Source: Saprospiraceae bacterium (GTDB lineage: Bacteria; Bacteroidota; Bacteroidia; Chitinophagales; Saprospiraceae). From it: a DNA stretch of 64,000 nucleotides. The notes below the pieces were generated by a model. That model had not been told where the DNA came from. It did not search any database and saw only the letters and a list, made by a program, of their open reading frames with translations. The stretch covers positions 62,001 through 126,000 of the forward strand of contig JANQLV010000023.1 in NCBI GenBank assembly GCA_028280415.1. Direction: 5' to 3'. Below are positions 25,714-43,705 of the stretch, in pieces (the stretch's first letter is position 1; each line of letters opens with the position of its first letter). The position numbers and the translations under genes were made by a program.

Positions 25714-26109
25714 ATGCTATTCGAAATGGATTTGAAAACCAGAATAAAAAATGCGGAGACGCGGATTTTCCGGGCCGTTTTTCCAAATACGACCAATCAT
25801 TATGATACTTTATTCGGAGGCAATGCTATGCAACTTATGGATGAAGTCGCTTTTATTACTGCAACCCGTTTTAGTCGAAAAAAAGTAGTGACCGTCAGTA
25901 CCAGCAAAATCGATTTTAATAAACCTATTCCCAGTGGTACGCTGATTGAATTAGTGGGAAAAGTTTCCCGGGTAGGAAATACCAGTCTCGATATTCATGT
26001 GGAAATTTTTATTGAGCAAATGTATTCTGATCATCGCGAAGAGGCCATACAAGGCACTTTTACTTTCGTGGCGATAGATGATGAGAAAAACCCGGTTCAG
26101 GTTTTGTAA
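25714..26109 (+). CDS. Acyl-CoA thioesterase (hotdog fold)
   Basis: The 131-residue protein belongs to the BACH/YciA-type hotdog thioesterases, which hydrolyse acyl-CoA to the free acid and CoA in the cytoplasm. Family features are NHYDTLFGGNAMQLMDEVAF with the catalytic-Asp region, the strand VVTVSTSKIDFNKPIPSG and LVGKVSRVGNTSLDIHVEI. An in-frame ATG at 25726 gives a start closer to most homologues. The last 50 bases overlap the end of the convergent DUF5690 gene. Confidence 0.92.
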   Translation: MLFEMDLKTRIKNAETRIFRAVFPNTTNHYDTLFGGNAMQLMDEVAFITATRFSRKKVVTVSTSKIDFNKPIPSGTLIELVGKVSRVGNTSLDIHVEIFIEQMYSDHREEAIQGTFTFVAIDDEKNPVQVL

Positions 26110-27364
26110 TTATTTCCGATTTAAAAATAAAATATAAACCTAGTACGATGAATAAGCCCAAACTACCTCCTGTAAAACACAAGCTTTGGTAAAAGCTAAG
26201 CCACTCAATATCCGCATTTCCAAAATTTTTGTACAGCATAATAAGAACGCTCCCCAGATAACCAAAAGCATCCGAGATATACATTATAAATCCTACATTG
26301 CCTGCAATTTTATAATGCGCGATAAATCGATCGAAGATAATACCGTTTAAGAGGATATAGGGTAGAAACAGGCCTATACCGGAAATAATCATCCAGCTTA
26401 CGGGAGACATAAAGTCCCGAGAATATGCAAAAGTGGTAAAAAGGAGCAAGCTGATCCCGAGAATCGAAATCAATACATTTGTCAGTAGCGCTTTTTTATT
26501 GTCTCTGATTTTGTAGAGTAATCCGAGGGATAGTAAGATGAGCAAGGCCACCGGAATTTCCGTCGTAGTAAATATTTGCGGGTTTTCGTCATAGCCAAGT
26601 CCAGTCCATATTTCTACCGCAAAATTATCCCGTATATCTCTAATAATCGTAAGGATCAGATAAAGTAAAACAAATAAAGTCAGAACGAACCAATATTTTT
26701 TCAAGAAGTGCTTTTTATCCTCTTTTGTCATCGGCAGTCTTTCTTGTTTGTAAGCTATTTCACTGGGGGAGGGTGGTGGAATCTTGCTCAGCATCCATAA
26801 AGAAAGGAGCAATAAGGGTATTGTAAACAGACCGATCATCATTGGCATTTCCTGAGATGAGTAACCACTATTCAACAGATAGGTCCCCCATGATTTTGCA
26901 ATCCCCGAAGAGAGAATAAAATTTGCACTAATCAGTACGGTAATAAATTCCGTTATTCTGCGTCCCTCGCAATAACTGAAAACAATCCCCCAGATCATTC
27001 CCAGAGGAATGCCGTTAATAAACAAAAAGACCGGTCCAAAAGCCGGAGGGGTATAAGCAAAACCTACTAAAGCCAGCCAGGCCGTCCCGATAAAATAAAT
27101 AAAGAGTCGAATCCTTTTTTTATTATCCAACTCTGAAATTACTTTGATCCCTAAAAATTTACTCAAGGCATAACCCAGAACCTGGGAAATAACCAAGATT
27201 ATCTTGTAGTCTACATCGAAAAAATCAAATTCTTCGAATGTTCCTGCAGTATATGGTTTGCGATACATATACATGCAGAAATAAGCCAAAAAACTGGCGA
27301 AGCCTGCCCAAAGTAAAAAAATCAAATTATTCTGGCTGAGGCGATATATTAGATTAGATTTCAC
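26060..27364 (-). CDS. DUF5690 multi-pass membrane protein, probable transporter
   Basis: This 434-residue protein has about 12 hydrophobic segments in an MFS-like layout. The first block reads FASFLAYFCMYMYRKPYTAG, as in organophosphate:phosphate-antiporter-like carriers, and there is a long basic loop between helices 6 and 7 (YKQERLPMTKEDKKHFLKK). It matches DUF5690, whose substrate is unknown. The GTG start at 27364 overlaps the stop of the phosphonatase-like gene (GTGA), showing translational coupling. I infer import of the phosphonate or phosphoester handled by the operon. Its 3' end overlaps the convergent thioesterase gene by 50 bases. Confidence 0.8.
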   Translation of the reverse strand: MKSNLIYRLSQNNLIFLLWAGFASFLAYFCMYMYRKPYTAGTFEEFDFFDVDYKIILVISQVLGYALSKFLGIKVISELDNKKRIRLFIYFIGTAWLALVGFAYTPPAFGPVFLFINGIPLGMIWGIVFSYCEGRRITEFITVLISANFILSSGIAKSWGTYLLNSGYSSQEMPMMIGLFTIPLLLLSLWMLSKIPPPSPSEIAYKQERLPMTKEDKKHFLKKYWFVLTLFVLLYLILTIIRDIRDNFAVEIWTGLGYDENPQIFTTTEIPVALLILLSLGLLYKIRDNKKALLTNVLISILGISLLLFTTFAYSRDFMSPVSWMIISGIGLFLPYILLNGIIFDRFIAHYKIAGNVGFIMYISDAFGYLGSVLIMLYKNFGNADIEWLSFYQSLCFTGGSLGLFIVLGLYFIFKSEIITKPEPGFSHHLSPRK

Positions 27365-28041
27365 GCTGTCTGCTCAAGTACCGAGGTAAGTTCGAACATA
27401 TCATCCAGGATAAAATCTGGGGCAGCTTCTTCTAACATGCCGCGCGACTGAGCGCCGGTAGTAATACCAATACAATACTTCACCTCCGCGGCCCGGCCTT
27501 CTTCTATATCGATTTTGCTATCCCCAACCTTGATGGCCTGAGAGGCCGGGATATTTAACTGATTACAAATCTTTAGGATCATATCCGGTTCGGGGCGATA
27601 ATTGTCTACATCACTGGCCGTCATGAGTATATCTATATCCTCACCGACCAGCAGGTTGGTTCTTTGTAAAATCTTTTCGGCAATATGCCTGCTATATCCA
27701 GTATTAAAAGCGATTTTAATTTGCTTCTCTTTAAGCACTGGCAGTATTTTCTCTACCCCGGAAAAAACACTAATCGGATAAACCTCATAGGCCGCTTCGA
27801 GTGCATTCAGAAAATACTGATGAATCCTGGCAACGAGTTCATCTTTTGGCTCTACGCCTTCAATCTCAAAAAGGATATCCCGAATCGCTCCATATTTTTC
27901 CTTGCCCGCACCAAGTTCCAGTACTTTTTCCAGGCTTACCGTAATTCCTTGCTCTGTAAGGCTTGATTGAATCGTTTTATAGACAAGGTTATCTTCATTG
28001 ATGACTGTGCCAGCCATATCAAAAATTATTAGTCGGATCAT
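27361..28041 (-). CDS. Phosphonatase-like HAD hydrolase (PhnX-related)
   Basis: The 226-residue HAD enzyme opens with IIFDMAGTVI: the nucleophile is Asp8, and the usual second Asp is replaced by Ala10. This DxA motif is typical of phosphonoacetaldehyde hydrolase (PhnX), which uses a cap-domain Lys instead. Lys47 in LGAGKEKYGAI is at nearly the same distance from the nucleophile as the PhnX Schiff-base Lys. The other HAD motifs are the Thr region FNTGYSR, a late Lys/Arg segment (DNYRPEPDMI) and KVGDSKIDIEEG. Resemblance is strongest to the TIGR03351-type phosphonatase-like group. Expected reaction: C-P cleavage of phosphonoacetaldehyde or an analogue. It lies between the FAD oxidoreductase (2-base gap) and DUF5690 (4-base overlap). 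Confidence 0.87.
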   Translation of the reverse strand: MIRLIIFDMAGTVINEDNLVYKTIQSSLTEQGITVSLEKVLELGAGKEKYGAIRDILFEIEGVEPKDELVARIHQYFLNALEAAYEVYPISVFSGVEKILPVLKEKQIKIAFNTGYSRHIAEKILQRTNLLVGEDIDILMTASDVDNYRPEPDMILKICNQLNIPASQAIKVGDSKIDIEEGRAAEVKYCIGITTGAQSRGMLEEAAPDFILDDMFELTSVLEQTA

Positions 28042-28043
28042 GT

Positions 28044-29216
28044 TTAATAAGAAGTAGTTTGATTAATTGAAAAAAGTTGTTCAACATTTTGCCTGGCGTA
28101 GCCAGGGGCTCCGGTCATTCCTTTACCACCTATACCTGTAATAATGTGGATATCTTCGTCGATCGTCTCTTTAAAAATATCTCTTTCTGCACACTGGCAA
28201 TAATACCCCAACCAGGTCCGCCGAATGGTCCAGTCATCAAAGTCAAAAATGCGTTGAGCCTGACTAAGCATAAAACAGTTTATACTATTATCTGTATCGA
28301 AGGAAAGGGTTTCTATTTCATTGACCGGAGCATAATGATGAGAATCTCCGATAATAATAGAGCCGTCCGGAGATTGCTTAAATAAAATGTGGATTCCATT
28401 TTTTTTATAAAAAGAATGTTCATCCTCTTTGGCTTTTACGGATGCATAGGAAGGGCACTCCTGAAAACTTTCATAACGCCGAATGGTCCATCCCGTCAAA
28501 ACGGAGCCTTCGATCCGAATATTTTTCATTGGTAAAGTATCCATCATTTGAAGTTTGACCAGGTGCAGATCACTTGCTTCGAAAATCTCTGGAAACAATA
28601 TTTGAAATTCCGTTCCTGAACAAAGAATTACTTTACTCGCCTGGTATTTTTCCAAAGCCGAAGTAGTGATGGTCACTGTATCATTAAACTTGTTGACAGC
28701 CTTCACACAAGTATTCGGTATATAAACAAGATCATGAGCCTGAACTAGGTATTCGATAATCCTTCGGGCAGCATGTCTGGGATCAACAATAATTTCTTCC
28801 GGGAAATATAGCCCTCCTTTTACATAAGTAGATTTAAGCCTTGGATAGCGTTTCAGGCAGCTTTCCTTATTCAATAAAACAGAAGTATAATCATGGTTCC
28901 TGTTAATTTCTGCCAATTCCTCCAATAATCCCATTTCCTCCTGATCACTTGCCAAGTACACTGTTCCTTCCTGGCGGACTCCAATATTTGCTTCCTCTTG
29001 CAAGTGCTGATAAATTCGCAAACTTTCGCGGCCGAATTGTTGCCATTTATTATCAAATCCGGAGGGCACTATTTGACCAAAGTTTCTGACTGTTGCCGCC
29101 TGATTGTATTGGTTCTTTTCAACTAATGCTACTTTCAAGCCTGCTTTTAAACAATGATAGGCATGGGAAATCCCAAGAATTCCTCCTCCAATAATAATTA
29201 CATCGTATTTATTCAT
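28044..29216 (-). CDS. FAD-dependent oxidoreductase of the phosphonate-linked TIGR03364 type
   Basis: The 390-residue DAO-fold enzyme begins with a dinucleotide-binding motif (DVIIIGGGILGISHAYHCL). It carries ATVRNFGQIVPSG after the first beta-alpha-beta unit and ends with the FAD block HIITGIGGKGMTGAPGYA, both of which I associate with the TIGR03364 family found in phosphonate operons. Enzymes of this type oxidise aminoalkylphosphonates (2-aminoethylphosphonate or N-methyl forms) to the aldehyde. The phosphonatase-like HAD enzyme encoded 2 bases downstream would then release phosphate. The exact amine substrate is inference. Confidence 0.85.
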   Translation of the reverse strand: MNKYDVIIIGGGILGISHAYHCLKAGLKVALVEKNQYNQAATVRNFGQIVPSGFDNKWQQFGRESLRIYQHLQEEANIGVRQEGTVYLASDQEEMGLLEELAEINRNHDYTSVLLNKESCLKRYPRLKSTYVKGGLYFPEEIIVDPRHAARRIIEYLVQAHDLVYIPNTCVKAVNKFNDTVTITTSALEKYQASKVILCSGTEFQILFPEIFEASDLHLVKLQMMDTLPMKNIRIEGSVLTGWTIRRYESFQECPSYASVKAKEDEHSFYKKNGIHILFKQSPDGSIIIGDSHHYAPVNEIETLSFDTDNSINCFMLSQAQRIFDFDDWTIRRTWLGYYCQCAERDIFKETIDEDIHIITGIGGKGMTGAPGYARQNVEQLFSINQTTSY

Positions 29217-29251
29217 TTCGTTTATTTGTGAGATTTTAGTGATTATCCGAT

Positions 29252-30352
29252 TTACATTGGAACCGAAACTTTAAATTGTTTTTTATACCCAATTACCGCA
29301 TTGAGAATGTTAAATTCCAAAGGGATTTTTTCACCCTGATTTCTGGAGGTAATCACCTGTAATATTTTTTTGCTTTGAGGTAAAATTTCAATGATGTCTG
29401 TATTTTTCTGAAAGTCATAAACAGAAATATTATGCAACATGAATTTCGCATCGCTTACATTAGTGGCTTCGATTTCCAGGACATCCGTATCTCCGATATA
29501 ACCTTTGGTTTTGAAAGAGAGAGAAGCATCGACAAGCATTTTCATATTATCTTCTTTTCCGGCAAGGATATTGTCAAACCAGGTAACTGTTCTACCTGCG
29601 AATAGTGCTTCCCTGATCGCCTCTTCTGAACGCTCTTTAGCGAAGACCAAACAGATCGGGCGATGTCCGCCTTCTGCAATACGGTATTGATAATCAACCA
29701 GTCCATGGATATCGGAAGTACCCAATACTGTTAAATTATTTTCAATAGCAATTCTAAGCGCTTCCTCGGAAAAAGTTAAATCATTAACCACTTCTATTCC
29801 GTGCAGCAAATCGCTTTTGATCAATGAATCATGTAGAGTTGACAATTTTGGAATACCGTCTTTTTGTTGCTGAATCCAATTGGGATGATTCCAAAAAATA
29901 AAAGCGCCCTGATCCCGTGCTTTTTGATAAGCAGTAATAGAATCTTCGACGACCAACTCATTGACATCTTTTACAAATAAGGCATTGGCATGTCCGGGGG
30001 GCATATCCCGGGTGATTTCCGTACCATGAATGACGATCAAATTATGAGGCTTTGCTGCCTTTTTGGCAATTTCATAAGATCGATTTCGGTCGGGATGTGG
30101 AATGTCTTCCTTCCAGGGCTGGTTCTCAATATGCTCCGTTAGGGAGATTGCATCCAAACCATCTTTTACCGCCTCGCTTACCCGGATCGTTGGCCACACA
30201 TGTCCATCACTAAAAACCGTATGGATATGTAAATCACACTTGAGCGTAAGAAAACTGTCAACATCGGGAAACTCGATTTTACGGTCCAGGTCCTGAGCTG
30301 TGGTACGAAGTGTGGCGATAAAAACAATTAATGAAAATATATAATATCTCAT
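29252..30352 (-). CDS. Secreted PHP-domain phosphodiesterase (Sb-PDE-like)
   Basis: The 366-residue protein has a signal peptide (MRYYIFSLIVFIATLRTTAQ) followed by a PHP metallo-phosphoesterase domain. The metal-site motifs are DLHIHTVFSDG, LTEHIENQ, HGTEIT, FWNHPNW and GTSDIHG, consistent with a three-metal site. Residues from about 275 form a small beta domain. It resembles the Sb-PDE-type phosphodiesterases known for cleaving alkyl phosphodiesters, which would suit release of a phosphonate or phosphate monoester from a diester in the periplasm. It is spaced 12 bases after the metallophosphatase and 35 bases before the FAD oxidoreductase, so it is in the operon. Confidence 0.83.
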   Translation of the reverse strand: MRYYIFSLIVFIATLRTTAQDLDRKIEFPDVDSFLTLKCDLHIHTVFSDGHVWPTIRVSEAVKDGLDAISLTEHIENQPWKEDIPHPDRNRSYEIAKKAAKPHNLIVIHGTEITRDMPPGHANALFVKDVNELVVEDSITAYQKARDQGAFIFWNHPNWIQQQKDGIPKLSTLHDSLIKSDLLHGIEVVNDLTFSEEALRIAIENNLTVLGTSDIHGLVDYQYRIAEGGHRPICLVFAKERSEEAIREALFAGRTVTWFDNILAGKEDNMKMLVDASLSFKTKGYIGDTDVLEIEATNVSDAKFMLHNISVYDFQKNTDIIEILPQSKKILQVITSRNQGEKIPLEFNILNAVIGYKKQFKVSVPM

Positions 30353-30364
30353 ATGCTGGAGTTG

Positions 30365-32254
30365 TTAGTGGCTGAGCTGAAAAACGGAAAACGGAATCTT
30401 TTCATTCTGGCTGGTAACAAATCCGGAATAAACGAAATTATTCCCTCCGCCTTCAAAATACTCAATACGAATCCAATGTTTTCCTTTTTCAAGGATCGTT
30501 GTCCCCGATATATATTTTGCACTGTGCCGCCCGTCGCTGTCTACAACAATTTCATCATTTATAAAAAGTTTAGAACCATCATCAGAATAGGTATAAAAAG
30601 TGTAAGTATCTGTTTCCGGAACTTCAAGGTAGCCTTCCATAACAACTCCAAAATTATTTTCCCGATGATCAATTTTATCAATATTTGCAAGCTGGATAAC
30701 ACCTGTTTTTACCGGTTTCAATTTAGAAAAATCCGGTAAGCGTTCCCAGCTGCCTTCATAATAGGCATATTTGAGTCCTCTTTTTGTGGAAGAAGGATTA
30801 GCCGCAGGAATCGGTTTCATTTTTTTGAAACTGCGAGAGACCACCCGGCTTGCCCGGCCATCTTCGGTAAAACAAATGGCATTCAAGGTAGCTGTATTTT
30901 TGATTTCAATTGGTTCAGAGTAAAGACTTGCCTGCTGTGTGGGTCTTGATCCGTCGAGGGTGTAATAGATTTTATAATCATTGGACAAGGCCGATAAAGT
31001 CGCTATTGCCTTATTCTGGAAAATAGTTTTATCAATTTTAAAATGAGGTGCAGGAGGCTTAATCATGCCTGTGTTTTTGTCCTCTTTTTTTTCCAATTGA
31101 AAAGTATCGAACAAATGCCCTTCATGATCAATTGCTTTAAACAAGAGATGATTTTCATAAATAGCAAAAGTGCAATAATGATGTCCGGTTTGCAACTCTT
31201 GTGTAAACCAGGATCGAACCGGATCAAAGTCCTCAAGACCTCCGCCAGCGCCTCCGGAATTAATATAGATTACACCGTTTTTCAGGTTGACTTTATTATT
31301 GAGCAAAGGCCAGGTTCGTTCATAAAGATGCGTATGACCAAAAAGACAAAAATCCACATTGTAGGATTCATAAAGTGGTACTAAATTCCGGGCATGTGTT
31401 CCTAATGTTGAAGCTCCGATATAGGTATCCCCATGATCGTTCTCTTCGCTGGAGTAGGGCGGATGATGATGAACCACAAATTTCCAGGTTGCTTTGGATT
31501 GTGCCAGTTGCCATTCCAGCCAGTCATACTGCTCTGATCCTTCCTGCACATCTCTATTGGTATCAATCATAAAAAACTGAGCATTGCCATAGTGAAAAGT
31601 GTAATAGTATTCCGGGGCAGGATTGACCATATAATCATAATATAAAGTGGCATCCTGCTCGTGGTTACCCAGTACAGTATACATCGGAAACCGGCTCATT
31701 GCAATATGACCATTGGGGAAAAAATGTTGGGTCCAGTCTGTTTTTTTTGTCCCTACATCCACGAGGTCGCCTACATGTATAATGAAGTTGGGCCGATCCT
31801 GCCAGACCTTTTCGGCAATAGTGCCCCAGGCCCAGGGGCTTTTGCTATTGTATTGAGAATCTCCTACAAGTGCAAAGAAATAAGCATCATCATCGTTTAC
31901 TACTGTTTTAAAAGTGAGTACTTCGCTTTGAATACTTTTACCATTAGATAAGATGCCGGTTACCCTGTACAAATATTTTGCAGCTGGCTTAAGGTTTTTT
32001 ATATGTACTTCATGGAGTGCTTTAGGCTCTGTAATCTTTATCTTTTGGTTGAGATTTGGTTTTTCAGCATCTTTCAATGCTTCCCCATATTCTATGAATC
32101 CTGTTGACATCTGCTGCGTTTCCCAAAGTACGTGCATACTATTCTTCGTTCCCCATTGCAGATAAGGTTTTACTAAAAAAGTATCCTGTTCCGTTTGTGC
32201 AGCTAACTGACAGGAATATAAAAAGAAGAAAAAAATCAGGGTTTGAAAGTTCAT
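30365..32254 (-). CDS. Secreted purple-acid-phosphatase-like metallophosphoesterase with PA14 domain
   Basis: The 629-residue secreted protein (signal peptide about 1-19) starts with a fibronectin-III-like PAP domain (about 25-115). The calcineurin-like metallophosphoesterase domain follows (about 125-375) with all metal motifs: GDSQYN, HVGDLVD, LGNHEQD, VHHHPPY and FGHTHLYER. Next is a chitobiase-type Ig-like domain (YYTLDGSRPTQQASLY, about 425-470) and a C-terminal PA14 domain (about 495-625; TYSDDGSKLFINDEIV). PA14 and the Ig module suggest binding of a polymeric or glycosylated phosphoester. No T9SS domain is present. A 130-base gap separates it from the upstream HD gene, so an internal promoter is possible. 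Confidence 0.87.
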   Translation of the reverse strand: MNFQTLIFFFFLYSCQLAAQTEQDTFLVKPYLQWGTKNSMHVLWETQQMSTGFIEYGEALKDAEKPNLNQKIKITEPKALHEVHIKNLKPAAKYLYRVTGILSNGKSIQSEVLTFKTVVNDDDAYFFALVGDSQYNSKSPWAWGTIAEKVWQDRPNFIIHVGDLVDVGTKKTDWTQHFFPNGHIAMSRFPMYTVLGNHEQDATLYYDYMVNPAPEYYYTFHYGNAQFFMIDTNRDVQEGSEQYDWLEWQLAQSKATWKFVVHHHPPYSSEENDHGDTYIGASTLGTHARNLVPLYESYNVDFCLFGHTHLYERTWPLLNNKVNLKNGVIYINSGGAGGGLEDFDPVRSWFTQELQTGHHYCTFAIYENHLLFKAIDHEGHLFDTFQLEKKEDKNTGMIKPPAPHFKIDKTIFQNKAIATLSALSNDYKIYYTLDGSRPTQQASLYSEPIEIKNTATLNAICFTEDGRASRVVSRSFKKMKPIPAANPSSTKRGLKYAYYEGSWERLPDFSKLKPVKTGVIQLANIDKIDHRENNFGVVMEGYLEVPETDTYTFYTYSDDGSKLFINDEIVVDSDGRHSAKYISGTTILEKGKHWIRIEYFEGGGNNFVYSGFVTSQNEKIPFSVFQLSH

Positions 32255-32385
32255 TGGCTAATAGATAATAGTTAATTTAAGTGCGATTCATTTTTAAAGA
32301 GAGAAATTGCGTCTAATTTTGTTCGAGATCAAAGATTTCTATCAAAATTCTCCTTATTCCCTCTCATGCATCGCAAATGGTTTAG

Positions 32386-32949
32386 TTAATATTCCTGCGA
32401 TAATAATAGCAATTCCAAATAGTTCCAATGGCTTTCAAGGATTTCAAAGTCAGGATTTTTCGCAGCATCATCTATCTTTCGGAGGCTTACTGACTCCTGA
32501 AAAAGCGTAGTTGATTTGAATACCTGAATTTCCTGCTCTGACATCACACCACCCTGATATGCTAATGTTTTCTTACTCGCTTCTGATAAGGTTTCGTAAT
32601 AATTCGGATCAACCGCACATAAATATCTTTTAGTCGCAACATGGTTTTTAATCGGTATATATATTTCTTCGGGAAAGTTCATCCCTTTCAGATAACGCGC
32701 TCCTATTTCTTCGTGATTCACGATGCCGAAAACCCCCATTTCTGTAGTTAATCCTGGTTTTTGCAATGGAAGAAGATGGCCAATATCATGGAGAAACGCG
32801 GCTAATATTAATTCTTTGCTATAATTTTCCTCTCTGGCCAGTAAACCGGATTGGAAGGAGTGGGACAATACAGATACATTTTCTCCGTATTGCTTGTACC
32901 CATATTTTTTAAACAGTTTAAAAATTCGGTCCTTATTAATTTGTCTCAT
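32386..32949 (-). CDS. PhnZ-like HD-domain diiron oxygenase (C-P bond cleavage)
   Basis: PhnZ-type enzymes use a mixed-valent di-iron centre and O2 to cut the C-P bond of alpha-hydroxylated aminoalkylphosphonates. The 187-residue protein has all expected ligands in order: His30, His54-Asp55 (FLHDIGH), His79 (NHEEIGARYL), His103 (NHVATKRYL) and Asp160. PhnZ hallmarks outside the metal site also occur: Tyr21 and Glu23 at the entrance (QYGENVSVLSHS), HVATKRYL and the long match SEASKKTLAYQGGVMSEQE. The ordinary PhnZ partner PhnY, a 2-oxoglutarate hydroxylase, is not in the window. The gene overlaps the end of the upstream phosphatase gene by 4 bases. TmpB-like activity on trimethylated substrates is an alternative. 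Confidence 0.88.
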   Translation of the reverse strand: MRQINKDRIFKLFKKYGYKQYGENVSVLSHSFQSGLLAREENYSKELILAAFLHDIGHLLPLQKPGLTTEMGVFGIVNHEEIGARYLKGMNFPEEIYIPIKNHVATKRYLCAVDPNYYETLSEASKKTLAYQGGVMSEQEIQVFKSTTLFQESVSLRKIDDAAKNPDFEILESHWNYLELLLLSQEY

Positions 32950-34046
32950 TTCTTAATCATTGTATCGATTACTTTTCCCGCTTCATATTTTCCTCCTTTA
33001 TAATCATAACCAAGCATTTTAGCTACAGTTCTGGCAATTTGATCCTGAGCCAATTGTTCCTTTTTAGCAACTTCTCCCAAAGCCGGGACATTGGGTCCCA
33101 GGGCCGCCGCCCAAATTTCATCGGAACCTTTGTAAATGGTCCCATGACTTTTCCATTCTGTCATCGGAGAGTTTCCCCGGCCATGATCCGTCGTAATTAC
33201 AAGTGTTGTTTTATTTTTATAAAAAGGATCAGCCTGCAGAAATTCCCATAATGCCTGTATCCATTTATCCGTCTGATGAGCAGAATTAAGATAGTGATCG
33301 TATCTCCCATCATGCGCAAAATCATCGGTTTCTCCATATGAAATATAAACGACTCTTGGATGGTGTTTTTTCATATGCTCCAACATATAGTTATGCGTAA
33401 AGGCATCCAATCTTACAGAACTCCATGGACTAGGAATCTGATCTTGTAAATCGTTAAGCAATTGTTCGGTATAAGTCAGGTAAGTATCTTTTGCTTTTCT
33501 AAATCCGGCGTTTACAGGGATTTTACTTCTTTGATCATTGATAATAAATGGAAAGACATCCCAGGAACAGAAAGCAGCTACTTTCCCGCTAAATTCCGGT
33601 TTTTCATGTAGCCATTCCAATATGGTTTTATTGGGATTATACTTCTTATCATTGGTATCGATCACTGGATCACTGTAACCGGTCAATATTTCGCTATAGC
33701 CCGGATATGAAAACCAAAAACGATTTGTACAATTCATTTTATTTCCCAGCCAACGATTTCCATATAATTGCCCTTCTTTAGCAAGTGTATTCCAAAACCA
33801 GGGCATTAGTTTTTTGCGTGCTTCTTCTTTGTTTGGAGCGCTGAATTTTGCCATTAAGGATTCCGGATTTTTAACCAGTTTTTCGTTGAGCATCATACTG
33901 TCAACTGCTCCTCCAAATAGTTCTTGCCAGCGCAATCCATCCAAGGTTATCAAGACAATATTGTCAACCGTTTCTACTTTTTCCTGCGACTGGGCAAAAA
34001 TGGAAACAGGTAGAAGAAAAAGGAAAAGAACTAATGTTTTTTTCAT
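32946..34046 (-). CDS. Secreted alkaline-phosphatase-superfamily phosphodiesterase
   Basis: The 366-residue protein has a signal peptide (MKKTLVLFLFLLPVSIFAQS) and the type I phosphodiesterase/NPP fold: first metal Asp in ITLDGLRWQELFGG, a probable Ser nucleophile in SYPGYSEILTG, Asp and His ligands in SYGETDDFAHDGRYDHY, and TTDHGRG with a late WKSHG. Such enzymes hydrolyse phosphate or phosphonate esters in the periplasm. The nucleophile is Ser rather than the usual Thr of many NPPs. Its stop overlaps the PhnZ-like start by 4 bases, tying a secreted esterase directly to C-P cleavage. A hairpin lies between it and susD. Confidence 0.85.
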   Translation of the reverse strand: MKKTLVLFLFLLPVSIFAQSQEKVETVDNIVLITLDGLRWQELFGGAVDSMMLNEKLVKNPESLMAKFSAPNKEEARKKLMPWFWNTLAKEGQLYGNRWLGNKMNCTNRFWFSYPGYSEILTGYSDPVIDTNDKKYNPNKTILEWLHEKPEFSGKVAAFCSWDVFPFIINDQRSKIPVNAGFRKAKDTYLTYTEQLLNDLQDQIPSPWSSVRLDAFTHNYMLEHMKKHHPRVVYISYGETDDFAHDGRYDHYLNSAHQTDKWIQALWEFLQADPFYKNKTTLVITTDHGRGNSPMTEWKSHGTIYKGSDEIWAAALGPNVPALGEVAKKEQLAQDQIARTVAKMLGYDYKGGKYEAGKVIDTMIKK

Positions 34047-34075
34047 TGCACAAATAGTCTGTTTTGGAAAAGAGA

Positions 34076-34092
34076 GGCTGATAAAATCAGCC
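34076..34092 (-). promoter_or_regulatory. Hairpin between susD and the phosphodiesterase gene
   Basis: GGCTGAT (34076-34082) and ATCAGCC (34086-34092) form a 7-base-pair stem with a 3-base loop. On the minus strand it is followed by a mixed pyrimidine stretch (TCTCTTTTCC), not a clean T tract. Such hairpins may protect the susCD message and lower downstream expression. Confidence 0.45.
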
Positions 34093-34150
34093 CCCCGTAT
34101 TAATTTACTGTAAAAAAACTTTCAGTATAATAAAATTGGTAGTATTCAGT

Positions 34151-35593
34151 CTATTGTAACAGCCACATTTTAGTATCAATTTCATCTGGTCCCTGGCTGG
34201 CAACTGCTTGTTGATAACTTTCTGCATTTAATACCTGCTCACTTCCGGGATACTGAACTCTCACTGGTAGTTCGCTTAATATCGCATTTGGCCCAGGCGT
34301 TAATGCTGGTAAACCCGTTCTTCGGAAATCAAACCAGGCTTCATTTCCTATCAAAAACAGAGATAACCATTTTTGAGTGGCAATCCTATTCAGATGATCC
34401 GTATCCAGTTTCACAAGTGGATTATTAAGGTACGCATCGGTATCGGTAATCCCCAAATAGTTTAAATTGGCGATTATTCCTGCTTCGTAAAATCCACTGG
34501 CACCGCCCCGACTGATATATCCTTTTTGCTCAGCTTCCGCCAGAATGAACATTAATTCAGAAAAATGCATAATGGTCATTTCAACAGTCGCGGGATCTTC
34601 TCTAAAGCGTGTCCCTAATCTGGACTGGTTATTGGCTCCGCCATTAAAATTGGAAGCGGCGTCTTCAGATAGCCCGTTTGGTACTCCTACAAACTCATCA
34701 CTATCTGGATTATCCACCGGACGGAAAAGTATCGGCATACGTGGATCCTCCAAGTCTTTCAATATTCCTTCAATACGCTGACTCATTCTTTTCTCATCAA
34801 AAGACCCTACTCTTGCAGTATTAAGCGGCCAGCGGTTCGTACTTTCCAAATAAGACACTGCAGCATTATCATCATTACTGGTAAAGTGCAACCCGGAAGC
34901 AGCAATTTCATCAATCTGCCCTGCGCCATCAATACCCAATTCTCCCCATTTATTTTCCAATCTCATCAAATAACGAACTCTTAGTGAATTGGCAAATTTA
35001 ATCCACTTATCCAGGTCGCCATCATAAAGAATATCACCGTTCATATTTCCCCCTTTGTTGAAAAATGTTACAGCTTCTTCCAGGTCTCCCAGAACAGCTC
35101 TGTAAAGGTCTTCCTGAGCATCGTATTTTGGAAGAAATTCATCGTTCTTTCCAGCCAGGGCTTCACTGTAGGGAACGTCTCCGTACATCTCCGTCAGGTT
35201 GGCTAACATCCAGGCTCGAAGGACCAAAGCTGATCCCTGATATCCACCATTATTAGTGGATTCGCCGAGTGCAAAGAGGTTATTAGCATCTCTAATATTT
35301 CGATACAGCAAATTCCATGTCCCTTCATAAGTTCCATACAAATAGCGATCGTTCCCTGTAAAGTTATTGGTAGCTACCAATTGAGCAATGATATTGCCTA
35401 AGCCCCAGGCAACATCAGAGGTCATTTCATTTCCCGTTTCAAACAGGATTTTAGGCAAAATCAAGGCAGGATTTGCTTCATCAACCGTTGGAAAATTGGG
35501 ATTATCATTAATATCTTCAAAATCATTAGTACAAGCTTGCAGGACTAATATCAGTAAGAGTACAAGGATAGATTTATATTTTAAAAAATTCAT
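34151..35593 (-). CDS. SusD/RagB-type outer-membrane lipoprotein
   Basis: This 480-residue lipoprotein (signal ending in LVLQAC, lipidated Cys about residue 21) is a member of the SusD-like family: TNDFEDINDNPNFP after the lipobox, helical TPR-like repeats with LVLRAWMLANLTEMYGDVPYSEA, and the C-terminal part with LSLFLIGNEAWFDFRRTGLP. SusD proteins cap a SusC TonB-dependent transporter and bind the ligand at the cell surface. It lies 30 bases after susC. Because the next genes are phosphoesterases and phosphonate enzymes rather than glycoside hydrolases, the ligand is probably a phosphonate- or phosphoester-bearing molecule (inference). Confidence 0.93.
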   Translation of the reverse strand: MNFLKYKSILVLLLILVLQACTNDFEDINDNPNFPTVDEANPALILPKILFETGNEMTSDVAWGLGNIIAQLVATNNFTGNDRYLYGTYEGTWNLLYRNIRDANNLFALGESTNNGGYQGSALVLRAWMLANLTEMYGDVPYSEALAGKNDEFLPKYDAQEDLYRAVLGDLEEAVTFFNKGGNMNGDILYDGDLDKWIKFANSLRVRYLMRLENKWGELGIDGAGQIDEIAASGLHFTSNDDNAAVSYLESTNRWPLNTARVGSFDEKRMSQRIEGILKDLEDPRMPILFRPVDNPDSDEFVGVPNGLSEDAASNFNGGANNQSRLGTRFREDPATVEMTIMHFSELMFILAEAEQKGYISRGGASGFYEAGIIANLNYLGITDTDAYLNNPLVKLDTDHLNRIATQKWLSLFLIGNEAWFDFRRTGLPALTPGPNAILSELPVRVQYPGSEQVLNAESYQQAVASQGPDEIDTKMWLLQ

Positions 35594-35623
35594 AATTTGA
35601 TTCTTTGTTAGTTGAAAAATTAC

Positions 35624-38600
35624 TTAGAATGTAACTCCCAGGTGGAAACCGACGCTTCGGGTGCTTGGGGTTGCCATATCTTCTACTCCGGGAACAATCG
35701 TATTGCCGTCATAAGAAAAAGTCTCCGGATCAAAGTGTGGATTTTCAGTAAATAGCAATAAGTTTCTTCCGATAATGCTAAAGGTCAGTCTTTGAGCTCC
35801 AAGCTTGGATGCAATGTTTTCACCAAAAGTATATCCAATGCTTAATTCCCTCAGTTTAAGGAATGAAGCATCATAAATTCCAACTTCTTCATTTCCGCGG
35901 TTGAAATGTGACCAGTAAAAATCTCTGGCAGATACTGCCTCGGTATTCGTTACAAAATTGCCATTCTCATCTTCCACAAAACCCGGGCGGTCCAAAGTGC
36001 TCACACCCGATACTTTTGTTTGTCCTCCAATGAAAGTATGCGTTTCCCTATCGTACTCAGCAGTCTCTGCTACCAAGCCCGAAGTACCACCGATCAATAA
36101 TGTTCTAGACATAATTACACCTCCATGTCTCCAGTCTAATAAAAATCCAAGGCTAATATTTTTCCAGGTCAGGCGATTGTGCATCCCCATCATGAAATCC
36201 GGATTATAGTTGCCAAGCTTTCTTAAGTTGGGATCTCTTACCGGGAAACCATCTTTGTAAAGGTGCCCCCAGTCACTTTCAATATCTGCTACATCATCAA
36301 CGGTAACAATTTCATTATTTTCCGGATCAACCAATACGAATCCGGTTCCGTATACATCACCCATTCTCTGACCAACCTGAGCTTGTACGCTGAGATAGTT
36401 ATTAGACACTTCATAAGTCTCAAGATCATCGGTCAGGCTTATTACCTTACTTCTTGCTCTTGTAAAGTTGATGCTTGTTTCCCACTGGAAATTTTTTGTT
36501 CGGACGGGTACGATACTTACCAACGCTTCGATACCTGTACTTTCAATTTCTCCTGCATTAATAAATTTAGATCCAAAACCGGAAGTTTGAGAAACAGGAA
36601 TACTAATGATTTGATCCGTAGCATTATTTTTATAATATGTCAAATCCAACCCTATACGATTTCCAAAAAATCGCAAATCAGTACCTATTTCAAAAGTGGT
36701 CAGACGTTCTGGTTTCAAATCCGGATTGGGTAATACGTTTCCTTCCGTACCCAGTAATTGTGTTCCGTATGGATTGGAAAGAAACTGGAAGTAGGGTTGC
36801 AGTGAATAAGGATCCGTATCATTACCTACCTGACCATAACCTAATCTCAATTTAGCGAAGGAAATATCCTGAGGTAGTTCAAAGAGTTCACTAGCGATGA
36901 AAGAAACAGAGGCTGATGGGTAGAAGTAACTATTATTCTCGGCAGGCAATGTTGAAGCCCAGTCATTTCTACCCGCAAGATCAACGTAAATTGCATTGTT
37001 GATTCCGATCGACGCATTCGCATAAAGAGAATTAATTCGTCTCTTGCTATTGAAAGAGTTTTGTAAAAGCGGAATATTGGAGTTATTAAAACTGTAGATT
37101 CCCGGAACGGCCAACTCATTGGCAGCAACCTGGTTAAATCGATTTTCCTGAGTCATTTGATTTCCTCCGGCGGAAACAACCAATGAGATATTATCATTCA
37201 GATTTTTGTTATACTGTAATAAGAAATCCGTATTGATTTCCTGGAAGTACACCTTGTCTTCCCGGTACTGCCCTAAAGGAAATCTTTGTGTACTCCAGGC
37301 TCTTCTTCCTTCTCTTAGATCATTGAAAACATCCGTTCCCGAACGAAGCATCAAGCTTAAATTATTCGTGATATTATAAGTCAAATTAATGTTCCCGAGA
37401 ATTCTGTCCTTATTAAAGCTGTTGGTGTTTTCAAACATCGTAAAGTAAGGATTGTCATGCCAGTTATAATTATAGTTAAACTGCTGAATGCCTTCCAAAC
37501 CTGGTTGCCAGTAATCTCTTAAGGATTCGATTGGAATCTGTCTTCCGAACCAAACCCATAAGTACATGATGTTTTCTGTACCATAGGAATTATTAGGCCG
37601 GTTTTTGGACCCTGAATTGATGTAATTAATATTTGCATTGATCCGGAGTTTGTTGTCTAAAAACCGATGTCCCAAATCGAGGTTGACACCATTTCTACGT
37701 AGGTCGGTGTTTGGCAAAATACCTTGAGAGTATTGATTAGAATAAGAAAGTCTGAAATTACTGTTCTCGTTTCCTCCGGTAATCGAAACATTATTATTGG
37801 TAGAAACACCCGTTTCAAAAAAGTTTTCGATATTGTCCGGTTGTGGTACCCAGGGCAATTTCTCGTAGGTTTCCTGATCCGTATATCCATCCGGGCGCAA
37901 TGCAAAATCTCCCGCTCGTAAACCCTCACCGTTTTTACTCTGATGTTGAACCATTAATCGGCCATCCAAAGCCGGGCCCCAACTCTCATCGATATTATCA
38001 TTAGTTCCCGATCCAAAGCCATCAACAAATTCAAAATTAAAGCCGGCTCCTTGTCCATATTTATTCTGGTAGTCTGGAATGCGTAATGCCCGTTCAAAAG
38101 TAGTAGCCGAACTTACGCTAACTCCAATTCCTTTGGTTCCCTGTCCTGATTTAGTAGTAATCAAAACAACGCCATTTGCAGCTCTTGATCCGTAAAGCGC
38201 CGTCGCATTTGCACCTCTCAGAATAGTTACAGAAGCGATGTCATCCGGGCTGATTTCAGCAGCTCCGTTCCCGTAGTCTGTTTCGAGATTTCCCTGTGCC
38301 CTTCCGTTGCTTCCATTGGAATTACTAATTGGTACACCATTTACGACGAATAAAGGCTGGTTATCTCCCGACAGGGAAGACTCTCCACGGATAACAATCC
38401 TGGATGAAGACCCAACTCCCGAGCCGCCTTGTGTAATATTTACCCCGGCCACTTTTCCGGTGAGATTATCGAGCAGGTTCGGTGTTTTCACTACGGATAA
38501 ATCCGCTCCGTCCACTTCTTGCGCTGCATAGCCCAGTGCTTTCGTAGCTCTTTTAATCCCCAATGCCGTTACCGTAACTTCATTGAGCGCAATACCGCCT

Positions 38601-38929
38601 TCCGTTAATGCGATTTTAAATGCATTATCCTTTCCAACTAAGTGTTCCGTTTCAGCATATCCAATATAGGAAACAAGCAAAATATCATCATCTTTTACAT
38701 TTTCCAAAGTGAAATTCCCATAGATATCTGTCGTAGTCCCCTGTCCCGTATTTTTAACTGTAATGTTGGCTCCAATCAGGGGTTCCTGCGTATTTGCATC
38801 TGTAATAGTTCCGGAGATGGTCCTCTGTGCAGACAGAGAAAAGAACATAAATACGCCCAGCAAAGTCAATAGACCGGGCAGTAGTCTTTTTTGAAATGAG
38901 AAATAATGTAGTAGTACTGATTTTTCCAT
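35624..38929 (-). CDS. SusC/RagA-type TonB-dependent outer-membrane transporter
   Basis: The 1101-residue protein has a signal peptide ending near SLSAQ, a carboxypeptidase-regulatory-like domain (about 37-110; ISGTITDANTQEPLIGANIT), a TonB-plug domain (about 125-245; LDNLTGKVAGVNITQGG, SSSRIVIRGESSL, IASVTILRGANATALYGSRA) and a 22-strand barrel ending in an aromatic residue (GVTF). It imports substrate with energy from TonB-ExbBD. It heads the nine-gene minus-strand operon and is preceded by a candidate promoter (39024-39052) and a palindrome (39095-39113) shared with a divergent HTH protein. No N-terminal signalling (STN) domain is seen, so it is probably not regulated by a FecIR-type system. 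Confidence 0.95.
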   Translation of the reverse strand: MEKSVLLHYFSFQKRLLPGLLTLLGVFMFFSLSAQRTISGTITDANTQEPLIGANITVKNTGQGTTTDIYGNFTLENVKDDDILLVSYIGYAETEHLVGKDNAFKIALTEGGIALNEVTVTALGIKRATKALGYAAQEVDGADLSVVKTPNLLDNLTGKVAGVNITQGGSGVGSSSRIVIRGESSLSGDNQPLFVVNGVPISNSNGSNGRAQGNLETDYGNGAAEISPDDIASVTILRGANATALYGSRAANGVVLITTKSGQGTKGIGVSVSSATTFERALRIPDYQNKYGQGAGFNFEFVDGFGSGTNDNIDESWGPALDGRLMVQHQSKNGEGLRAGDFALRPDGYTDQETYEKLPWVPQPDNIENFFETGVSTNNNVSITGGNENSNFRLSYSNQYSQGILPNTDLRRNGVNLDLGHRFLDNKLRINANINYINSGSKNRPNNSYGTENIMYLWVWFGRQIPIESLRDYWQPGLEGIQQFNYNYNWHDNPYFTMFENTNSFNKDRILGNINLTYNITNNLSLMLRSGTDVFNDLREGRRAWSTQRFPLGQYREDKVYFQEINTDFLLQYNKNLNDNISLVVSAGGNQMTQENRFNQVAANELAVPGIYSFNNSNIPLLQNSFNSKRRINSLYANASIGINNAIYVDLAGRNDWASTLPAENNSYFYPSASVSFIASELFELPQDISFAKLRLGYGQVGNDTDPYSLQPYFQFLSNPYGTQLLGTEGNVLPNPDLKPERLTTFEIGTDLRFFGNRIGLDLTYYKNNATDQIISIPVSQTSGFGSKFINAGEIESTGIEALVSIVPVRTKNFQWETSINFTRARSKVISLTDDLETYEVSNNYLSVQAQVGQRMGDVYGTGFVLVDPENNEIVTVDDVADIESDWGHLYKDGFPVRDPNLRKLGNYNPDFMMGMHNRLTWKNISLGFLLDWRHGGVIMSRTLLIGGTSGLVAETAEYDRETHTFIGGQTKVSGVSTLDRPGFVEDENGNFVTNTEAVSARDFYWSHFNRGNEEVGIYDASFLKLRELSIGYTFGENIASKLGAQRLTFSIIGRNLLLFTENPHFDPETFSYDGNTIVPGVEDMATPSTRSVGFHLGVTF

Positions 38930-39023
38930 TCTGTAAGATTTAATTCTGTTCCAATAATTTAGAAATACACCGGATTAAAGAACTGACCGGTTTTTCGTTT
39001 GATAATTTTTGGGGATTCTGTTG

Positions 39024-39052
39024 CTAAATTAGATGGGAGATGTTATTTGCAA
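39024..39052 (-). promoter_or_regulatory. Candidate promoter of the susC operon
   Basis: On the minus strand TTG (39052-39050) is followed after 18 bases by TAATTTAG (39031-39024), one mismatch from TAnnTTTG. Predicted leader: about 90 bases. Confidence 0.45.
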
Positions 39053-39094
39053 GTATGAATGGAATTAACCAATTTTTAATAATTAATTAATTGA

Positions 39095-39113
39095 ATGAAT
39101 TAATTTAATTCAT
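39095..39113. promoter_or_regulatory. Perfect 19-bp palindrome, candidate operator
   Basis: ATGAATTAA, one central T, then TTAATTCAT. It lies 43 bases upstream of the predicted susC -33 element and 51 bases before the start of the divergent HTH gene, a natural place for an operator controlling both. The surroundings are A/T rich, which lowers the significance. Confidence 0.45.
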
Positions 39114-39133: not shown

Positions 39134-39149
39134 ATCGTTTTCGAACGAT
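39134..39149 (+). promoter_or_regulatory. Small perfect hairpin before the HTH gene
   Basis: ATCGTT, TTCG, AACGAT: a 6-base-pair stem with a UUCG-type tetraloop, 15 bases before the ATG at 39165. It could be a second operator half or a leader hairpin. Confidence 0.3.
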
Positions 39150-39164
39150 ATTCAAACAAAATCT

Positions 39165-40088
39165 ATGAGCAAAAAAGATCAGGTATTAATTCGGAAAGCA
39201 AAGGAAATACATGCTTTGTATCTTGAGCTTAATCGAAACGGATATAGAAATAAGGATTTGGCGAAGGTTCTAAATATCTACCCTTCAGCTTTTTCCGTTC
39301 TTTTCAATAAAATAATAAAAGCATTAACCAGCCTTTCGGAATACGATACAGATGTGTCGAAAAAAGTTCAACAACTGTTCAGCAGCTTTAATAATGTTTC
39401 TGAAGTCAAGACCCGGCAAAGAATTTCGGACTATATCGAAAAACTGAAAGAAGTAAAAATTCAATCTTCTGGCACTTCAGGAGAAAAGCTAAAGCGCTTC
39501 ATAGAAAACCTGATCGATGATTCGCCCAGAGAAGTAATGGCTCGACTCGAAGGCATTTATCACTGTTATTATTTGTCTTCTTTTGGTTATAAAATCAAAA
39601 GAGAACCACTGATGATTTCCTACAGTGCAATTAACGAGTCTTATCTTATCCGGAAGGGAAATGATATGGGACCTGCCAAATATCTGGGTTTTGGCTATCT
39701 CTCCAATAACCACATATTCACCATACAGATAAAAGAATTGGATACTTTAGTTCCGGACAATTATCTGGCACATTTCCATTTACCTCCTTCCTATTCTATC
39801 ACAATGAATTTGATGAAAGGAATTTCTGTCTCTATGTCAAATGCCTATCTGCCGATTTCGAGAAAAGTCATTTTGCACAAGTATTCAAATGAGACCAGGA
39901 TGGAAGTTTTTAACAAACAAGAAACTTTCTTTTTCAAAGATGAATCGATGGTAGATAATTCTATCGTTCAGTACTTGCAAAAATCTGCGGATTATATTGA
40001 ATACCTACCCATTCCTCAGCCGAGTTATGATGTGGATGATCTGGTGAAAGAAGAGCGCTTGAAAATGGTTAAATTAGAAGAGGGCTAA
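39165..40088 (+). CDS. Uncharacterised HTH-containing protein, candidate regulator of the susC operon
   Basis: I recognise no named family for this 307-residue protein. The first 60 residues read as a helix-turn-helix (LYLELNRNGYRNKDLAKVLN then IYPSAFSVLFNKI), similar in pattern to phage-type or Xre-type DNA-binding domains. Residues 120-300 form a predicted alpha/beta domain with SYSAINESYLIRKGNDMGPA and many aromatic residues, perhaps a ligand sensor. It is divergent from the susC operon with a palindrome between them, which is the classic layout of a local regulator. Its end overlaps that of the convergent glycosyltransferase gene by 4 bases. Confidence 0.6.
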   Translation: MSKKDQVLIRKAKEIHALYLELNRNGYRNKDLAKVLNIYPSAFSVLFNKIIKALTSLSEYDTDVSKKVQQLFSSFNNVSEVKTRQRISDYIEKLKEVKIQSSGTSGEKLKRFIENLIDDSPREVMARLEGIYHCYYLSSFGYKIKREPLMISYSAINESYLIRKGNDMGPAKYLGFGYLSNNHIFTIQIKELDTLVPDNYLAHFHLPPSYSITMNLMKGISVSMSNAYLPISRKVILHKYSNETRMEVFNKQETFFFKDESMVDNSIVQYLQKSADYIEYLPIPQPSYDVDDLVKEERLKMVKLEEG

Positions 40089-41258: not shown

Positions 41259-42161
41259 TCATCTCGGAATCAAAATCTTGTTGGACAGAAATCCATCCCG
41301 GCTATTTGCTTTGAAGCGCCGGATAAAAAATTCAATTAATCGTTCCCAGGGAAAGGAAAGTATAAATAAAATGTAAATGTACTTATCAAAATTGATATTC
41401 ATAGACATCAAAATCCCGAAATGCATTCCGATTAGAGTCAATCCGATAAATGGTCTGGTTTTTTTAAACCAAAACAGAAAACCGAATAGCTCGGCTAATA
41501 ATCCAAAGACCAGGATAAGTGTAGCAGCAAGCTTGCTGTCAAATATTAATTTTTGTAATGAATTTGGCACGAATGCTCCTGTTTGTGAGAGAACATCTAC
41601 ACTTCGCTCTCCCAACCATAGCCATAAGTGTTCGCCACTCACCCAGGCTGGTCCGGTCGCGATCAATTTGCAGATCGCTGCCGAAGTATATCCCAGACCG
41701 ATATAAAAAATAGCGAGGCCCAATGCAAAACGTCTGGCTTCTTTTTCCTGCTTAAAAAATATAAAAGCCAAAGCCAGGCCAAGTAAAGTCATGGCTACAA
41801 TATTGGATCCATGAGAGATTTCTCCCTGAGAAAAGCGGGCAATATATTGAAAGTGAAACAGGATCAAGGCAATGAGGTAACCCCAGGAAAAACGACGGAA
41901 AAAACTCAAGGCAATAAATACCGTAGCTCCTATGGCAATCAGAACAGGTGTGACATCATTAAATAAGGTACTGACATCAAAATATTGTGCTAATCCAAGG
42001 GGCAATACAACTCCTTGCAATTTGGGGATATAAGTTGACCAGGACCAGATATACTGGAGGGAAAACAGGCAAACAAAAAATTCGTACATCCTGAAAAAAA
42101 TCAATTCACTCAAACTTTCCTCCCGATTCCAGTCGAATAAGTGTATAAAAAAACGTTGCAT
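41259..42161 (-). CDS. HTTM-type multi-pass membrane protein
   Basis: The 300-residue protein has about eight hydrophobic segments and resembles the horizontally transferred transmembrane (HTTM) domain of vitamin-K-dependent gamma-carboxylase-like proteins: SELIFFRMYEFFVCLFSLQY at the start, then AIFYIGLGYTSAAICKLIAT, GPAWVSGEHLWLWLG and GLTLIGMHFGILMSMNI. No carboxylase C-terminal domain is present and the biochemical role is unknown. It follows a 158-residue partner gene with only one base between them, and the pair lies inside a surface-polysaccharide locus. Confidence 0.7.
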   Translation of the reverse strand: MQRFFIHLFDWNREESLSELIFFRMYEFFVCLFSLQYIWSWSTYIPKLQGVVLPLGLAQYFDVSTLFNDVTPVLIAIGATVFIALSFFRRFSWGYLIALILFHFQYIARFSQGEISHGSNIVAMTLLGLALAFIFFKQEKEARRFALGLAIFYIGLGYTSAAICKLIATGPAWVSGEHLWLWLGERSVDVLSQTGAFVPNSLQKLIFDSKLAATLILVFGLLAELFGFLFWFKKTRPFIGLTLIGMHFGILMSMNINFDKYIYILFILSFPWERLIEFFIRRFKANSRDGFLSNKILIPR

Positions 42162-42162
42162 A

Positions 42163-42639: not shown

Positions 42640-42780
42640 AGTTGGTTATTTTTTGAGATAAACTTTTCTAATAACTAATGAAAATCTTTCAGGTTTTGTG
42701 AATTAGATGATTTTTTTGTGAATTTTTACGAAATGAGGGCGAGGTTAATAATTAAATGTTCAAAAAAAGGATACAAAGGC

Positions 42781-43704: not shown

Positions 43705-43705
43705 T

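Follow-up and report, generated by a model that had tools for sequence, protein, structure and literature searches.

The window analysed here is a 64,000-nucleotide stretch of a Saprospiraceae bacterium (assembly GCA_028280415.1, contig JANQLV010000023.1, positions 62,001 to 126,000), a member of the Bacteroidota with a genome of 7.1 Mb. It carries a minus-strand run of nine open reading frames (ORFs), from position 38929 down to 26060, in which a SusC/SusD (SusCD) pair stands beside phosphoesterases, enzymes of phosphonate breakdown and a membrane protein of family DUF5690. The spacing is operon-like, and the genes may be expressed together: from susC to the DUF5690 gene the intergenic gaps are 30, 104, −4, 131, 12, 35, 2 and −4 bases. 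The genes, together with the one that diverges from susC, are as follows.

35624..38929, minus strand: SusC, TonB-linked outer-membrane transporter (TIGR04056, 634.4 bits against a cut-off of 368.25).
34151..35593, minus strand: SusD surface lipoprotein, SusD-like_2 (PF12771, 2.6e-86).
32946..34046, minus strand: alkaline phosphatase (AP)-superfamily esterase, exported as judged by eye, a candidate phosphonate mono- or diesterase (PF01676, 8.9e-06).
32386..32949, minus strand: PhnZ-like HD-domain oxygenase (TIGR03276, 7.6e-55; PhnZ structure, PDB 4mlm, 3e-30).
30365..32254, minus strand: calcineurin-like metallophosphoesterase with a purple-acid-phosphatase-like N-terminal domain and PA14, exported as judged by eye (PF00149, PF16656, PF07691; PDB 3zk4, 6.3e-18).
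29252..30352, minus strand: PHP-domain phosphoesterase, CehA/McbA-like, exported as judged by eye (PF02811; PDB 3e38, 5.1e-76).
28044..29216, minus strand: FAD amine oxidoreductase of the PbfD type (TIGR03364, 391.2 bits against a cut-off of 285.1).
27361..28041, minus strand: phosphonatase-like HAD hydrolase (TIGR03351, 1.9e-51, below the cut-off).
26060..27364, minus strand: DUF5690 polytopic membrane protein (PF18943, 2.8e-145), from its context a predicted aminophosphonate permease.
39165..40088, plus strand: divergent gene, a possible local regulator (a sub-threshold mTERF match in Pfam only).

The ORF, Pfam and NCBIfam matches agree with an initial annotation, made from the letters of the window, that had named nine consecutive minus-strand genes of these families. 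Its description of the gaps as mostly overlaps or shorter than 40 bases holds for six of the eight, the remaining two being 104 and 131. The extent it gave, 26060 to 39113, reaches into the intergenic stretch before the divergent gene; the first gene begins at 38929. By eye, the N-termini of SusD, the AP-superfamily protein, the metallophosphatase and the PHP protein look export-like, and those of the PhnZ-like, FAD and HAD proteins do not. At E 0.001, Pfam and NCBIfam matched none of the nine proteins to any family of glycoside hydrolases or polysaccharide lyases, the carbohydrate-active enzymes by which a polysaccharide utilization locus (PUL) is recognized; the co-localization of SusCD with phosphoesterases, the mark of a phosphate utilization system (PUS), is present.

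Conserved catalytic motifs

Invariant residues in the PhnZ-like protein (29 sequences) are Y21, H30, H54, D55, H58, H79, H103, K107, S125, Q132, R157 and D160, which we take to be the metal ligands and substrate contacts of an HD diiron oxygenase. In a HMMER alignment all are identical in PDB 4mlm except Y21, which a loop shorter by one residue shifts by one column; the Y-x-G-E loop has one residue fewer in the window and in one related locus (L093; L numbers denote loci and G numbers genomes). PhnZ is the best PDB match (3e-30), and TmpB matches at 3.9e-25. In the HAD protein D8, G11, T12, K49 and R149 are invariant, and A10 is present in at least 90%, of 21 sequences; DMAGT, K49 and R149-P150 align with phosphonoacetaldehyde hydrolase (PDB 2iof). 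Presumably these correspond to the DxAGT motif, the Schiff-base lysine and the arginine replacing the usual lysine that characterize the TIGR03351 phosphonatase-like proteins.

The FAD protein lies above the cut-off of TIGR03364, the family to which PbfD1 is assigned in passages of PMC10590968. According to the same passages, PbfD enzymes convert N-methyl-2-aminoethylphosphonate (N-methyl-AEP) and, less well, AEP to phosphonoacetaldehyde, and pbfD genes other than pbfD1 mostly adjoin phnX alone. The window enzyme is predicted to convert N-methyl-AEP or AEP to phosphonoacetaldehyde. Homology and these motifs back the two routes of carbon–phosphorus cleavage, one by FAD enzyme and HAD and one by PhnZ, that had been proposed for the locus.

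The AP-superfamily protein is barely above the PF01676 cut-off, and the PDB yielded no close solved relative, the sole match being a phosphoglycerate mutase at 0.0089. Residues D36, S113, D241, H245, D287, H288 and H301 are nevertheless invariant in 16 sequences, the window's included, and match what we assume to be the two-metal ligand set and Ser/Thr nucleophile pattern of the superfamily. The metallophosphatase, in which Pfam finds CHB_HEX_C and PA14 domains, is closest in the PDB to purple-acid-type phosphatases and PA14 domains.

The linkage of SusCD to phosphonate genes recurs across Bacteroidota

TIGR03364 matches at E 1e-60 occur in 33 of 395 Bacteroidota genomes. Stretches of 20 kb, or to the contig end, were taken around 38 such genes (32 besides the window's own and six from relatives), with 40 control stretches at round positions chosen beforehand on the same contigs, drawn from 29 of the 38 genomes as well as from G164 and the genome of the window itself. 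The FAD stretches contained HAD in 29 cases, DUF5690 in 27, SusC in 20, SusD in 19, PhnZ in 15 and AP in 14, while the controls gave one SusC and one SusD and zero for the 14 other models, including HAD, DUF5690, PhnZ and AP. Among these related genomes SusC is thus found in 20/38 FAD stretches versus 1/40 controls (Fisher 2.7e-7); counting any match of the SusC model raises the controls to 5/40 under this looser rule, the FAD stretches having been counted by the strict rule only. SusC and the other models were trained on FAD loci themselves, which favours those loci, and the thresholds were set by us.

Of the loci anchored on the AP protein (the best 80 of at least 588 relatives, a count that still includes L278 and L291), 46 carried SusCD, 33 a phosphonate gene or DUF5690, and 28 both. 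The initial annotation had proposed looking in relatives for a separation of SusCD from the phosphonate genes; this comparison and the FAD stretches show them linked, though not universally. Among the named loci, those closest to the window by AP protein (72–75% identity) come from Saprospiraceae and Lewinella metagenome-assembled genomes.

The pooled set comprised 157 loci, or 155 after two exact duplicates were taken out (L278 = L093, L291 = L104); at least one core protein of L278 is identical to that of L093, from G003. Of these, 53, the window included, combine SusCD with one or more phosphonate genes or DUF5690. They were found through FAD, DUF5690, PhnZ or AP anchors, and exact duplicates alone were removed, so that near-copies such as L344 and L354 stay in the set; in its weak members L175 and L295, DUF5690 is the sole phosphonate-linked gene. 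SusCD, FAD, HAD and DUF5690 occur together in 30 of the 53, AP in 41 and the metallophosphatase in 18. A model made from one sequence, with a threshold of 40 bits, detected the secreted PHP protein in none of the others, which makes its part in the system the least supported. The locus type is present in the cultured species Leeuwenhoekiella marinoflava (L317), Roseivirga pacifica (L290) and Runella zeae (L352).

Gene replacement points to aminophosphonates

The strongest sign of the substrate is the pattern of gene replacement among the relatives. In L158 a single strand reads SusC-SusD-AP-PhnZ-PhnA-PhnY-PhnW-FAD(other)-DUF5690, with PhnW, PhnY and PhnA, all above their curated cut-offs, occupying the place of TIGR03364 and HAD in the window. 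Across the 53 loci the TIGR03364 enzyme occurs alone in 41, PhnW alone in three, both in none and neither in nine; the PhnW-only loci were called by our model, L158 being confirmed and L162 and L329 resting on the model.

A second replacement concerns PhnZ. Leeuwenhoekiella marinoflava has the order SusC-SusD-AP2-PbfA-metallophosphatase-AP-DUF5690-FAD-HAD, with PbfA above its cut-off. PbfA was confirmed above the cut-off in four loci (L125, L170, L317 and L327), lying inside the cluster in L317 and L327, which have SusCD and belong to the 53, and in L170, without SusCD; the other PbfA assignments are by our model at more than 400 bits. PhnZ occurs in 24 of the 53 loci and PbfA, by that model, in 12, with both in none and neither in 17. 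Such exclusion is expected if both enzymes dispose of (R)-1-hydroxy-AEP. For the functions of PbfA and PhnZ, and for the role of that compound, we rely on parts of PMC8154272, where mutual exclusion of the two genes in other clusters is tabulated (Table 1) and where an amoeba polysaccharide is named as the first source of (R)-1-hydroxy-AEP. Since PhnZ and PbfA both dispose of it, (R)-1-hydroxy-AEP is probably scavenged as such. The mutually replacing pathway genes narrow the substrate to aminophosphonates: the likely substrates predicted from these gene sets are AEP, N-methyl-AEP and (R)-1-hydroxy-AEP, which would be released from esters, for example phosphonolipids or phosphonoglycans.

No PhnY* is encoded among the nine genes, and a local PhnY* was dropped as a candidate: PhyH was not among the families listed (25 of 59) for 40 of the 42 unassigned neighbouring ORFs, a coverage that leaves room for a single member. 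Two PhyH matches lie elsewhere in the genome. One is a 327-residue protein that matches no NCBIfam phosphonate family, the presence of a PhnY* model in NCBIfam being unchecked; the other is a short frame containing a stop. PhnW was not found in the genome at E 1e-60. Separately, PhnW-DUF5690-PHP(HisJ-like)-PhnZ-HAD clusters occur in L183, L185 and L193, in stretches without SusCD, and their HisJ-like PHP protein recurs beside phosphonate genes.

SusD has been recruited repeatedly

In a tree of 91 SusD proteins the phosphonate-linked label changes 13 times, against a shuffled mean of 30.4, and at least nine of the changes are backed by starred branches; SusD proteins of such loci are therefore clustered and yet were recruited repeatedly. 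The window SusD falls in a starred set of eight, in which it and six others are phosphonate-linked and the eighth belongs to L238, whose contig stops just past susD. The SusD of L242 (genome G005) is represented in the tree by the identical L284 protein, under the AP label. More distant SusD relatives adjoin a membrane-like protein of about 450 residues (L256:2953-4314, with similar ORFs in L244, L249, L251, L252, L254, L255, L258, L259, L261 and L263); the L256 protein, the one scanned, has no Pfam match at E 1e-5.

DUF5690 as a predicted inner-membrane carrier

DUF5690 was found in 42 of 395 genomes; judging by the handles listed, this is the set that was searched for TIGR03364. It is present in 30 of the 33 genomes with the FAD enzyme versus 12 of the 362 without (Fisher 5.7e-32). 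In the three FAD genomes that lack it (G252, G295 and G389) a GlpT-type permease adjoins the FAD gene or lies one gene off, in L123, L125 and L127; as the permeases of L123 and L125 share 86% identity, this swap represents at most two independent events. A phosphonate gene lies near 57 of 73 DUF5690 copies placed in a tree, where the label changes six times (14.7 on average after shuffling) and the window copy is among the linked ones. A simple scan gives DUF5690 13 hydrophobic segments, some overlapping, and we propose that it is probably an inner-membrane carrier for aminophosphonates.

Comparison with known transporters is less favourable to this proposal. No significant kinship to any transporter family was found by sequence and profile comparison; MFS_1 matches 3 of 47 members, at best with 7.4e-4. 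In hhalign a three-sequence GlpT-type profile aligned co-linearly over 345 columns with a probability of 2.8% (E 0.016), and an unrelated membrane protein reached 4.8%. Among the membrane-protein targets (20 listed of 31), two GlpT-type single sequences aligned over 46 and 47 columns, the others over 8–47 and one over 99. In the weak, non-significant DUF5690/GlpT alignment, the invariant R35 and R242 coincide with two arginines of the GlpT-type sequences, which we take to be the phosphate-binding arginines of GlpT. DUF5690 is moreover seen in no more than 27 of the 38 FAD stretches, and 16 of the 73 copies have no phosphonate gene nearby; these may do something else.

Upstream region and flanking genes

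Homologues of the divergent gene at 39165-40088 also diverge from susC in L092 and L276. Between susC and this gene, in the window and in both these loci, lies the 14-mer TTAATTAATTATTA (39077-39090 in the window), of which a single further copy occurs in the 4.34 Mb searched, 14 bases before phnW in L158. It is a candidate operator. An inverted repeat, ATCGTT and AACGAT with four bases between them, lies just upstream of the divergent gene at 39134-39149 (one match versus 0.02 expected) and was not found in L092, L093, L276 or L277. Both elements were spotted by eye and after the fact, and L092 and L276 are close kin. A simple scan for promoters and terminators gave no excess over shuffled sequence (39 versus 38.7 and 12 versus 11.5). 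In other lineages an XRE-cupin protein, present in 16 of the 38 FAD stretches (for example L108:8164-8730; one was checked by Pfam), is the probable local regulator.

At the other end of the run a plus-strand ORF of 131 codons (25714-26109) shares 50 bases with the 3′ end of the DUF5690 gene. Beyond the divergent gene, four minus-strand ORFs at 41259-44698 have no Pfam match at E 0.001 and adjoin a glycosyltransferase gene.

Discussion

We interpret the run as an aminophosphonate utilization operon of PUS/PUL type, a reading to which we give a probability of about 0.66. That the locus is real, conserved and aminophosphonate-directed has good support; the SusCD cargo and the function of DUF5690 are predictions. 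On this model SusCD would bind and import a molecule bearing an ester-linked AEP-type phosphonate, the exported esterases (AP superfamily, metallophosphatase-PA14 and PHP) would release the phosphonate, and DUF5690 would carry it over the inner membrane into the cytoplasm. There the FAD enzyme would convert N-methyl-AEP and AEP to phosphonoacetaldehyde, which HAD would split into acetaldehyde and phosphate, and PhnZ would split imported (R)-1-hydroxy-AEP into glycine and phosphate. The PUL-like phosphonate and phosphodiester system suggested by the initial annotation is supported by homology and gene context, by recurrence against controls and by the pathway swaps.

Several observations weigh against this interpretation. 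The PhnZ-like protein falls below the TIGR03276 cut-off (185.2 versus 214.6 bits), as does HAD below those of TIGR03351 (175.1 versus 218.9, though this is the best of 32 families) and of TIGR01422, the PhnX family (97.2 versus 220). No SusC was seen in 18 of the 38 FAD stretches, where several contigs end early; in G005, SusCD is some 12 kb away. A single same-strand run (gaps below 600 bases) of SusCD with a phosphonate gene or DUF5690 occurs in only 23 of the 53 loci, and the Fisher values overstate independence, the genomes being related and the 53 loci having been collected through anchors, with no duplicates but exact ones taken out. PhnW and the FAD gene co-occur in L123, L124 and L125, where there is no SusCD; the FAD enzyme therefore does not substitute for PhnW in every case. 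In addition, 18 of the 80 AP loci carry SusCD without a phosphonate gene, and AP and SusCD may therefore serve phosphate esters too.

This last point also speaks for a less likely alternative, general scavenging of organic phosphorus of the PUS type, in which SusCD and the exported phosphoesterases import phosphodiesters, for instance head groups of phospholipids or fragments of nucleic acid, while the phosphonate enzymes merely share a phosphate-starvation operon. L286, with a PhoX domain, and L321, with a PI-PLC domain, fit it, as do the Flavobacterium PusCD loci, which passages of PMC8115612 describe as containing phosphodiesterases and as induced by phosphate depletion. Against it stand the 23 loci in which a single run unites SusCD with phosphonate genes or DUF5690, the direct adjacency of PhnZ to SusCD in L101, L103, L112, L114, L115, L119 and L180, and the phosphonate linkage of the SusD proteins closest to the window's.

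Two further explanations are far less probable. SusCD pairs are mostly glycan importers, and CHB_HEX_C and PA14, both present in the metallophosphatase, are also found in glycan enzymes, as would suit a glycan utilization locus with phosphonate genes adjacent by chance; the lack of glycoside hydrolases and polysaccharide lyases among the nine proteins (E 0.001) and the phylum-wide recurrence of the SusCD–phosphonate linkage make this very improbable. A biosynthetic phosphonate or hopanoid locus, suggested by the label HpnW_proposed of the TIGR03364 model and by that label alone, is if anything slightly more improbable still. Phosphonate biosynthesis was dropped when PEP (phosphoenolpyruvate) mutase was not found in the genome at E 1e-40; it was present in one of 48 genomes searched. 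The characterized TIGR03364 members described in passages of PMC10590968 oxidize N-methyl-AEP and lie in catabolic clusters.

The SusCD–phosphonate linkage has itself already been published for Flavobacterium: parts of PMC8115612 report PusCD as co-localized with phosphonate-degrading enzymes and PusD as polyphyletic, in likeness to the repeated recruitment of SusD seen here. The main-text passages of that paper name no FAD/HAD/PhnZ/DUF5690 set, and the word oxidoreductase is absent from them; whereas PUS is known from Flavobacterium, loci of the present type, here known from genes alone, span other Bacteroidota families. The PbfD–PhnX hydrolytic pathway, as given in parts of PMC10590968, likewise combines a TIGR03364 FAD enzyme with a phosphonatase-type HAD in the absence of PhnW, but the window HAD is closer to TIGR03351 than to TIGR01422, while below both cut-offs, and the set is coupled to SusCD and exported esterases. 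With the PhnY*–PhnZ oxidative pathway the locus shares a PhnZ that retains its catalytic residues, but its nine genes do not include PhnY*. AepP, described in passages of PMC8316502 as an AEP permease of GlpT type, resembles the predicted carrier DUF5690 in being polytopic, encoded by a single gene and located beside aminophosphonate genes, and it is AepP's kind that replaces DUF5690 in three genomes; DUF5690, in contrast, is a separate Pfam family with no significant similarity to GlpT.

The link to DUF5690 is the most useful new point. Within the open-licence literature searched, DUF5690 is named nowhere, and among the matches listed no title or abstract describes the present gene set, absences that carry little weight. 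The broader proposal is that DUF5690 represents a novel aminophosphonate permease family, and that many independently recruited SusCD systems of Bacteroidota, with aminophosphonate-lipid or -glycan cargo, form the phosphorus counterpart of the PUL. We hold it tentatively, at somewhat less than even odds, and two points weaken it: no more than two lineages support the permease swap, and a control outscored the GlpT comparison.

AEP is described as the most abundant marine phosphonate (abstract of PMC9381506). The cultured carriers of such loci would let organophosphonate import by SusCD be tested, and from these loci DUF5690 would gain a testable function.

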